A stretch of 64,000 bases of DNA. It comes from an uncultured Sunxiuqinia sp. (GTDB lineage Bacteria > Bacteroidota > Bacteroidia > Bacteroidales > Prolixibacteraceae). The translations under genes and the position numbers were made by a program. The stretch is from assembly GCF_963678245.1 (NCBI RefSeq), contig NZ_OY782767.1, forward strand, positions 310,001 through 374,000, read 5' to 3'. Shown here piece after piece: positions 6,493-10,456 of this stretch (its first letter is position 1; each line of letters opens with the position of its first letter). Below the pieces are notes generated by a model. That model ran no database searches. It was not told the origin of the DNA and saw nothing but the letters and a program-made list of their open reading frames with translations.

Positions 6493-7410
6493 TTATCGAA
6501 TATCTTCTAGATCGTAAGGCGTTAGCTGATAAACATAATAGTTAAGCCAGTTGGAAAATAGTAAGTTGGCTGCAGATCGCCATTTCATGATCGGTTTTTG
6601 TGACGGATCATCATTTGGGAAATAATTTTTGGGAACTTCAATTGGAAGTTTTTTCTTCAAATCGCGGTGATATTCATTACTCAGGGTTTCTCTGGAATAT
6701 TCAGAATGCCCTGTAATGAACAATTGACGTCCGTTTTTGGCTATTACCATATTCACACCCGATTCTTCTGATGTGGAGATTACTTCCAACTCAGGAACTT
6801 TGTCAATATCCTCTTTTCTAATTTCGGTATGTCGTGAGTGGGGTACAAAATACTCATCATCAAAACCCCTGAAAATGGGAATCTTATTATCAGAAGGTCG
6901 ATGTTTAAATACACCAAATGTTTTCTTTTCCAAGTCATATTTTGGAATGCCGTAGAAATGATACAAACTGGCTTGCGACCCCCAGCAAATGAATAGGGAA
7001 GAGGTAACGTTGTGGACTGACCAATCCATAATTTCTTTCATCTCATTCCAGTAGGTCACTTCCTCAAAAGGAAGCTGCTCAACCGGCGCTCCGGTAATGA
7101 TCATGCCATCATATTTGTTCTTCTTGATTTTATCAAAAGTGGTATAAAAAGCCCGCATATGTTCTGCAGAGGTGTTTTTATGGCGATGACCTTTGATTTT
7201 CAAAAAATCAATTTCAACCTGCAACGGAGTATTCGATAATAGACGCAATAAATCGGTTTCCGTTGAGATTTTTAATGGCATCAGGTTTAAGATGACAATT
7301 CTCAGTGGACGAATATCCTGATGAGATGCTTTGGTTTTGTCAATGACAAAGATGTTTTCCTTTTGAAGCAACTCAATTGCCGGTAATTGATCTGGAATAT
7401 TTAATGGCAT
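6493..7410 (-). CDS. metA: Homoserine O-acyltransferase MetA, predicted acetyl-specific
   Basis: The 305-residue protein is a full-length MetA. The triad is visible: C142 in FICWGSQAS, and H235 and E237 in TGHSEYSR. MetA acylates homoserine, the committed step of methionine synthesis. Acyl choice in this family depends on residue 111: Gly goes with succinyl-CoA (E. coli), Glu with acetyl-CoA. Here [10 protein letters not shown] places Glu at position 111, so an O-acetylhomoserine product is predicted. That fits the neighbouring metY, whose enzyme uses O-acetylhomoserine. It is the third gene of the operon, 58 bases after metY. Acetyl specificity is inferred from one residue plus context. Confidence 0.95.
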
Positions 7411-7468: not shown

Positions 7469-10137
<2,669 letters not shown>

Positions 10138-10158
10138 AAATCTTCAATTAAATTAAAC

Positions 10159-10232
10159 GAAAAGGTTGTGATGTGATGAGTGAAATTGTGAGGTGCCTTC
10201 AATCCGTACTTATGACAATACTGAATGAAGGC
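10159..10232 (-). promoter_or_regulatory. Attenuator-like RNA segment before the methionine operon
   Basis: On the minus-strand transcript, directly after the leader stop codon, GCCTTCA (10232-10226) pairs with TGAAGGC (10201-10195), with two more pairs after a mismatch. Then comes a stretch of 37 bases without a single G (10195-10159), rich in CC and UC dinucleotides, ending about 20 bases before the aspartokinase-like start. There is no U-tract after the hairpin, so a classical intrinsic terminator is not evident. G-poor, C-rich RNA is the type on which Rho loads. The position suggests control coupled to leader translation; the mechanism is inferred. Confidence 0.5.
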
Positions 10233-10333
10233 TATCGCATGCACATAACTGCGCATGGCATGGACATAGACATTTCAGCAGCACTGATGAAAAGAGCTGT
10301 ATAATTTTGCTGATATGTTATTGGGTTATCCAT
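10232..10333 (-). CDS. Met/Cys-rich leader peptide, 33 residues
   Basis: A short ORF lies between a good promoter and the met operon: ATG at 10333, TAG at 10232-10234. Its C-terminus is MSMSMPCAVMCMR, with five Met and two Cys in 13 codons. A shorter version could start at the ATG at 10273. The leader coding sequence also contains a hairpin (CATGCGCA with TGTGCATG, one G-U pair, loop GTTA). Runs of the codon for the pathway product directly before a biosynthetic operon are the hallmark of translation-coupled attenuation, as in trp, his and thr leaders. Starvation for charged Met-tRNA or Cys-tRNA would stall ribosomes here. No experimental or database support was available. Confidence 0.7.
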   Translation of the reverse strand: MDNPITYQQNYTALFISAAEMSMSMPCAVMCMR

Positions 10334-10353
10334 TTTTGTCTTTGATAGAGATG

Positions 10354-10384
10354 CAAACCTATGTATTTTTATTTAAAAACAAAA
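10354..10384 (-). promoter_or_regulatory. Bacteroidota-type promoter of the methionine operon
   Basis: Read on the minus strand, TTTTG (10384-10380) is followed after 18 bases by TAGGTTTG (10361-10354), a perfect match to the -7 consensus TAnnTTTG with a -33 element. Transcription would start near 10347, about 14 bases before the leader ATG, giving a leader RNA of about 210 bases. Confidence 0.65.
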
Positions 10385-10456
10385 GTTATTTAGAAAAAGT
10401 TTGAATAGCTGTTGGAGAAGTCTTAAATACATAGGGGGAGCTGGAATTGGGTATTC

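Follow-up and report, generated by a model that had tools for sequence, protein, structure and literature searches.

In this study, we observed a short leader ORF rich in Met codons, with a conserved hairpin at its stop codon, upstream of the methionine operon of an uncultured Sunxiuqinia sp. and across the family Prolixibacteraceae. The element is likely a ribosome-mediated methionine attenuator. We infer, with good support, that stalling of the ribosome at the Met codons is the sensor. The variant feature is the conserved stop-codon hairpin, which replaces the intrinsic terminator of classical attenuators. Leader peptides that are rich in the amino acid of their pathway mark ribosome-stalling attenuation (trp, his, thr, leu, ilv and phe in Proteobacteria). 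Methionine genes are usually viewed as being under the control of SAM riboswitches, T-boxes or repressors.

Genomes and loci

The window is the whole stretch of 64 kb that was analysed, and G000 is the genome it comes from. The genera of the family were numbered g1 to g23, and the window belongs to g1. Orthologues of the window's aspartokinase were sought in 140 Prolixibacteraceae genomes and 90 upstream regions were read (30 + 60 loci); somewhat over 20 aspartokinase places lie beyond these. Counts over 89 regions leave out L076, which is without the hairpin, and include near-duplicates, while the Met counts over 76 rows refer to distinct leaders, with L036 and duplicate 48-mers left out. The nearest named aspartokinases belong to Sunxiuqinia indica (94%) and S. 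elliptica (72%), and other relatives to Mangrovibacterium, Gaoshiqia, Draconibacterium, Maribellus, Mariniphaga, Prolixibacter and MAGs, many of them labelled Prolixibacteraceae. By these relatives, the window most likely belongs to Prolixibacteraceae, and there to Sunxiuqinia or a genus close to it.

The methionine operon and its leader

In the window, the element and its operon lie on the minus strand. A TAnnTTTG promoter motif (TAGGTTTG, 10361-10354), which we take to be the Bacteroidota -7 consensus, precedes a leader ORF of 33 codons (MDNPITYQQNYTALFISAAEMSMSMPCAVMCMR, 10232..10333), both read directly from the sequence. The ORF starts with ATG at 10333-10331, ends in MSMSMPCAVMCMR with the stop codon TAG at 10234-10232, and has Met codons at -2, -4, -9, -11 and -13 counted from the stop. 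The stop-codon hairpin (10195..10232) was established by covariation and by a covariance-model match. The first base of its GCCUUC strand is the G of UAG, GCCUUC pairs with GAAGGC, and the upper helix is variable. The spacer up to the aspartokinase gene (10138..10194) is G-poor and lacks an intrinsic terminator, according to direct reading and a terminator scan; a G-free stretch of 37 bases occupies 10195-10159, 36 of them within the spacer. The first gene of the operon encodes an aspartokinase-like protein, assigned to its family by AA_kinase and ACT domains (8791..10137). It is followed by metY for O-acetylhomoserine sulfhydrylase (7469..8773, TIGR01326) and metA for homoserine O-acetyltransferase (6493..7410, NF047918), after which a DJ-1/PfpI gene comes next. 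An earlier note on this DNA had described the promoter motif, the 33-codon ORF, this hairpin and another one within the coding region, and the G-free stretch, all of which are in place; the families of its aspartokinase-like - metY - metA operon were confirmed as well. A short ORF with five Met in its last 13 residues did not occur in any of 2000 dinucleotide-preserving shuffles of 10138-10384 (shuffle maximum 3), and folding of the 212-nt leader RNA gave z = -2.87.

The leader is associated with methionine synthesis. In all 20 family loci compared, metY follows the aspartokinase gene, and metA follows in 19, the twentieth being ended by its contig. An orthologue of the window's aspartokinase was not found in four genomes (G083, G088, G090 (g10), G096 (g11)), in which leader and hairpin lie approximately 190-245 nt before the metY match. 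Thus, the leader tracks methionine synthesis and not aspartokinase as such. No leader ORF of this kind was seen by eye in 20 regions upstream of thrA, and in several of these regions hairpins with T-tracts lie between thrA and the preceding gene.

Conservation of the leader peptide and its Met codons

The earlier note had proposed to check its reading by conservation among relatives, and by this check the leader ORF and its Met codons are conserved across the family, as are promoter motif and stop-codon hairpin. M-x-M stands directly 5' of the hairpin in 87 of the 90 orthologous upstream regions. The full pattern ATG-NNN-ATG-NNN-stop is present in 80, with TAG as stop in 80/80. The ten remaining regions comprise six without the stop, the variant L036, two g9 regions with a single Met ahead of the stop, and L076, which has neither leader nor hairpin. 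In the six genomes without the stop (three of g2 and three of g6), M-x-M-[R/H] is kept and TAG is replaced by GAG, CAG, AAG or CTG. L036 (g14) reads MCM, with the stop TGA and a compensated stem GUCUUC/GAAGAC. In the genome of L076 (G134) the aspartokinase is present, and the model search likewise gave no match. Wherever the hairpin is present (89 regions), an open frame leads up to it, with a start codon 12 or more codons upstream of the hairpin. The ORF continues into the hairpin in L014, L015, L026, L043, L054 and L055, where a sense codon takes the place of the leader stop and M-x-M is kept.

The Met codons are bound to the reading frame. Over the last 48 nt, ATG triplets are distributed 385/20/6 over the three frames, leader frame first (89 rows, near-duplicates included), compared to 136/142/143 in a control stretch further upstream. 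Among the 76 distinct leaders, Met occupies -2 in 76, -4 in 74, -9 in 58 and -6 in 49. Codon -3 varies among I, C, S, F, A, T, R and G, and this free variation of the residues between the Met is as codon sensing predicts. The earlier note had also considered charging of Cys-tRNA as an input. This part was dropped, given that Cys occupies -3 in 16 and -14 in 36 of the 76 leaders, versus Met at -2 in 76 and at -4 in 74. A TAnnTTTG motif precedes the hairpin by 60-220 nt in 83/89 regions, 70 of these at 118-127 nt, compared to 8/89 in a control window; the loci without it are the four of g18, that of g14 and one of g9. Judged by sequence, a short and apparently translatable ORF, rich in codons for the end product, thus lies between promoter and operon. 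With Met codons and stop-codon hairpin found family-wide, the Met leader peptide of the attenuation type that had been claimed for the window is probably a property of the family.

TnaC and plant CGS1 act by nascent-peptide arrest, and the M-x-M-R end could in the same manner sense Met or SAM within the ribosome tunnel. In favour of this, Met at -2 and -4 is nearly invariant and R is found at -1 in 60/76, adjoining the stop codon. However, residues -1, -3 and -5 are variable, the stop at the leader end is missing in six genomes, and the other Met leaders of the family end in unrelated peptides. Arrest by the peptide is therefore unlikely.

The stop-codon hairpin

A conserved RNA hairpin is present at the leader stop. 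In 45 aligned sequences, 92.3% of cells are paired and 7/12 pairs have changed on both sides; none of 500 shuffles equalled these two covariation values, and slid registers pair 31-50% of cells. RNAalifold alone returned the base stem only, and the upper helix was read from single folds and then tested by covariation. The base stem GCCUUC/GAAGGC is near-invariant in sequence and the upper helix is variable. At the third position of the stop triplet, which takes part in the lowest pair of the stem, 88/89 regions have G, even where the stop was lost. The stem therefore accounts for the G of UAG, but not for its U and A. Since the flanking AUGC/UAG is almost invariant along with the base stem, the element might be one of RNA only, a riboswitch or a protein-binding hairpin with an incidental ORF. 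This is very unlikely in view of the frame-specific ATG bias and of the unrelated Met-rich leaders in sister genera; besides, no Rfam 15 family matches the element.

The covariance model R1 matched 112 of the 140 family genomes (92/103 among those of good quality). In the window's genome the match is a single copy with E 5.9e-11. At E 0.01 there is one copy per genome, except for a second weak match in G105 (E 0.0011). The match in G120 was judged to be due to chance. With G120 set aside, the element is present in 16/23 genera according to R1, and in g14 in addition by eye. The 28 family genomes without a match include the g14 variant seen by eye (L036), two with a contig-cut aspartokinase gene, and others that are represented among the nine informative metY loci described below. 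In 393 genomes of the order, five family members matched with E 3.8e-4 or better, and at E 0.001 to 1 there were weak matches in 63 of the 388 non-family genomes. Of these weak-match loci 25 were read, and in none of them does a Met-rich ORF end at the hairpin; 8 of 12 that were re-inspected sit in open frames of at least 266 codons. No convincing R1 match was obtained elsewhere in the order. The exact motif occurs in 2/395 genomes of the phylum, namely the window's own and G175. The latter match was rejected as coding, since it lies within open frames that overlap one another, the longest of them with 212 codons.

The hairpin was matched with E < 1e-6 in 58 of 64 named aspartokinase loci. The exceptions are L219 and L220 (contig-cut gene), L224, L227, L232 (a distant relative) and L234, which has a hairpin at E 0.0005 and a Met-rich leader. 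At L224 and L227, aspartokinase relatives in MAGs labelled Spirochaetales, a Met-rich leader is absent. The aspartokinases of these two loci share 32-34% identity, and horizontal transfer or misbinning may explain their presence.

Two further hairpins deserve mention. A small one lies just 3' of the conserved hairpin in L081, L083, L091 and L144-L146 (g10), L082 and L087 (g3) and L078 (g18). In g10 it shows seemingly compensating changes, and by eye it is not obvious in the other genera inspected. The other is the hairpin inside the leader coding region (10236..10263, approximate ends, minus strand), which the earlier note had listed as part of the element. In the window it folds with -11.4 kcal/mol over 39 nt, and in the closest relative L003 likewise with -11.4, but over 89 relatives the median is -2.9 and the mean z versus shuffles is +0.48. 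It is not conserved and was rejected as a working part.

Proposed mechanism of sensing

Transcription presumably starts just upstream of the leader ORF of approximately 30 codons. When charged Met-tRNA is scarce, the ribosome would slow down at the Met codons before the stop. The slowed ribosome would leave the strand from UAG onward (UAGCCUUC) free to pair with GAAGGC, and the hairpin would form. When Met is plentiful, a ribosome at the stop codon would cover the 5' arm of the hairpin. The hairpin would accordingly be the starvation (ON) structure. This ON/OFF polarity is an analogy and not a result; the hairpin is read as ON because of the analogy with his, trp and the terminator-type Met leaders of the family. 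UAGCCUUC at the Met leader stop would correspond to the first strand of an antiterminator, of which the last strand of the terminator is missing.

Constrained folding of 78 distinct leaders gave a base stem probability of 0.96 with the ribosome at -9 and of 0.79 at -4. With the ribosome at -2 or at the stop the probability is 0, by construction. A ribosome stalled at -2, the most conserved Met, covers part of the 5' arm, which is a poor fit to the proposed polarity. Counting against the attenuator reading are also the six g2/g6 genomes without UAG, G134 without a leader, and the Thr-rich leaders of g9, which keep the hairpin.

Output of the element

Classical attenuators have an intrinsic terminator that is exclusive with an antiterminator, and this was not found here. 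A scan for terminator-like sites between 9700 and 10450 of the window gave none. A run of five T within 12 nt after the hairpin occurs in 1/89 relatives (L041); the missing U-tract, which the earlier note had remarked on in the window, is thus borne out in the family. Positive controls were the leaders of his and trp in the same genus, and because these do have hairpins with T-tracts, the absence of the U-tract is meaningful.

Leaders like MYNKLGHYGHHHNNLFIGRP precede hisG in 7/7 genomes of g1 (L251, G000:C4 near 335460, and the six genus relatives L245-L250), each followed by a hairpin and a T-tract, which is interrupted in one locus (L247). The end strand of the his leader, read from the sequence, pairs with the 5' arm of the terminator, so that a ribosome at the his leader stop would favour termination. 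Leaders like MNQIMLTSWWWRNNFSQYRGER precede trpE in 6/6 genomes of the genus, again with hairpin and T-tract (L254, G000:C4 near 1320766, and L252, L253 and L255-L257; SWWWRNNFSQYRGER type). No Rfam match was obtained in two loci scanned for each, L250 and L251 for his and L253 and L254 for trp. A second conserved inverted repeat, ATATGGCTTCCGTGG...AATAGCCATATTGG, was noticed upstream of the trpE leader. Like three of the Met leaders in the family, these leaders have the form of classical attenuators, and by their example a terminator might have been overlooked at the Met leader of the window. With 0 sites in 9700-10450 and the T run in L041 alone among 89 relatives, this is hardly credible.

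Alternatively, the element could be a translational switch, in which translation of the aspartokinase is blocked when its start pairs with the end of the leader or with the arms of the hairpin. No alternative pairing of the 3' arm was found family-wide when duplex energies of 75 distinct leaders were compared to dinucleotide shuffles. The mean z values were -0.38 for upstream ORF and 3' arm, +0.24 for 3' arm and spacer, +0.36 for ORF and spacer, and -0.62 for 5' arm and spacer, the last being strongest in g18 and g16 and positive in g2. Complementarity of the 5' arm to the aspartokinase start is seen in g18 (-19.9 and -24.9 kcal/mol, two loci) and g16 (-14.9 to -21.9 kcal/mol, three loci). A swap between genera gave no sign of coevolution (p = 0.53), at a power that is low because the hairpin arm is nearly invariant. 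The mean accessibility of the start is equal in all ribosome states (0.453-0.459, n=78), and the leader is retained in the four genomes without an orthologue of the aspartokinase. From the shuffle z values, the genus swap and the unchanged accessibility it follows that masking of the initiation site is not general, and as an output of the element it is quite unlikely. In L078 and L086 (g18) and in L008, L009 and L012 (g16), the complementarity of the 5' arm might represent a lineage-specific extra switch.

As a first guess, and one in which we have somewhat less than even confidence, the same sensor might act on premature Rho-dependent termination. Without the hairpin, the naked, pyrimidine-rich and G-poor spacer would load Rho, which would end transcription ahead of the aspartokinase gene or within it. 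Consistent with this, an intrinsic terminator is lacking from 9700-10450 and the T run follows a single hairpin in 89, though T-tract hairpins are present at his, trp and several thrA regions. The spacer contains 6.6% G and 17.2% C (n=89), compared to 15.1% G and 14.1% C in 20 genes of the window; relative to 66 pooled family start regions, G is lower (p ~5e-10) and C slightly higher (p 0.006). Rho was also proposed for the terminator-less Cys leaders of Actinobacteria, in the accessible part of that work (Seliverstov 2005, PMC1262725). However, the C excess is small, the unstructured stretch comprises only about 50 nt, and the aspartokinase start comes directly after it. Moreover, the 53 nt before metY are equally G-poor (8.2% vs 8.0%), though they are intra-operon. 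The earlier note had taken the G-free RNA as a pointer to Rho; the stretch is real, but because the region upstream of metY is as G-poor, the spacer is weak evidence for Rho, also as a candidate for the rut-like region that the leader ribosome exposes or hides in Rho-dependent attenuators of the tna type.

A trans-acting factor on the near-invariant stem is the next candidate. Since the stem is near-invariant, a protein or RNA polymerase may read the hairpin. It is tempting to speculate that a hairpin with a near-invariant stem, gated by the ribosome, is the signal to which Rho, RNA polymerase or a trans-acting factor responds, and that the charging of Met-tRNA is in this way turned into expression of the operon, a reading that we consider possible and put forward tentatively.

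Other Met leaders and the SAM riboswitch in the family

The regions upstream of metY were surveyed in 22 genomes without a convincing R1 match. A metY-like match was obtained in 15/22, and 7/22 had no metY match at E 1e-60. Ten loci were read, relatives of 34-37% being left out, and nine of them were informative, G120 among them. In six genera without a stop-codon hairpin of the R1 type, other Met-rich leaders precede metY. In g4, g5 and g20 (six loci, L260-L264 and L266) these resemble MNIRIKNITSSLIMSPMAMMMRMLLRMSK and are of the type ...MMMRMLxRMSK; the leader end GCGCAUGAGCAAAUA pairs with downstream UAUUUGUGUACAUGCGC, which gives a stop-spanning hairpin without a U-tract. In g15, g19 and g21 (one genome each), leaders with Met runs (MMMSMMMAMFMMM and similar; L267, L268 and L269) precede metY and are followed by an intrinsic terminator. 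These terminator-type leaders (G103, G116 and G125) share the family and the Met-rich leader before metY with the element described here, and differ from it in that a hairpin and a run of eight or nine T come next.

The leaders of g9 are Thr-rich (e.g. MITMTTITRTSISML). They have lost most Met codons and retain the hairpin, and the operon is unchanged in two loci. Just upstream of the g9 leader, a SAM riboswitch (RF00162) was detected in all three genomes examined (G074, G075 and G077) with 55.7-58.3 bits at a cut-off of 44.4. Among 36 loci scanned for RF00162, only g9 loci gave a match and 15 + 16 others gave none. The change is confined to one clade and thus perhaps represents one event. Among natural cases, g9 provides the best test of the role of the Met codons, since most of them have been lost where a riboswitch senses SAM. 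In the g9 loci L097, L125, L077 and L089, the SAM riboswitch lies ahead of a Thr-rich leader and the hairpin, possibly providing two inputs, SAM and Thr. In the window no Rfam riboswitch was detected, and around the leader nothing came near the gathering score. RF00521 was found in 0/60 family genomes, with no match in the control genomes either. The view of the earlier note that the operon is not under a SAM riboswitch therefore holds for the window, and has to be qualified for the family by g9, where this riboswitch stands beside a Met-poor leader.

Discussion

The best-known cases of leader-peptide attenuation come from Proteobacteria and Actinobacteria. Like classical attenuators, the Met leader has a promoter-proximal short ORF with pathway codons near its stop, where a ribosome would mask one hairpin arm; unlike these, it uses Met, lacks an intrinsic terminator and has a stem of near-invariant sequence. 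The SAM riboswitch RF00162 and the Met-tRNA T-box likewise are RNA controls of methionine genes. In these, the metabolite or the tRNA is bound by the RNA itself and no translating ribosome is involved. The SAM riboswitch of g9, however, precedes the same hairpin as is found with the Met leader. Cysteine leader ORFs of Actinobacteria are reportedly treated in Canestrari 2020, and Lopatovskaya 2010 is said to be a comparative survey of attenuation.

Within the Bacteroidota, the Bacteroid-trp RNA (RF01692) contains a leader ORF with Trp codons, as stated in the accessible part of its description (Weinberg 2010, PMC2864571). We read ten RF01692 loci (L235-L244, two of them below the cut-off), which have WW or WWW leaders and, by eye, a hairpin with a T-tract next. 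Bacteroid-trp thus differs from the Met leader in its amino acid and in the T-tract hairpin that follows; no match to RF01692 was found in the window or in G000. The Cys leader ORFs of Actinobacteria resemble the Met leader in that they concern a sulfur amino acid, have their codons near the stop and lack a terminator hairpin, and in that Rho was suggested (accessible text of PMC1262725). For Mycobacterium, that paper reports no conserved hairpin fit as a terminator (Seliverstov 2005, PMC1262725). The Met leader differs in its amino acid, in the covarying stop-codon hairpin and in the phylum. A map of B. thetaiotaomicron, in its accessible part, refers to sORFs in long 5' UTRs "reminiscent of leader peptides" (PMC7366714). 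As far as the accessible text goes, the best-matching PMC literature (including PMC2965389, PMC13236596 and PMC4833913) does not describe methionine leader peptides from Bacteroidota; Lopatovskaya 2010 could hold such a prediction.

If the hairpin is a signal gated by the ribosome, which is conceivable but falls short of probable, the mechanism would be undescribed for amino-acid leaders, and the same family would have given rise to Met leaders of the terminator type as well and, on one occasion, would have changed over to a SAM riboswitch. In summary, one family appears to control its methionine operon by Met-codon leaders in three RNA architectures. Together with the riboswitch of g9, these provide a natural series for studying how, in the absence of an intrinsic terminator, transcription could be controlled by a hairpin that the ribosome gates, a question that is directly testable in cultured marine bacteria.
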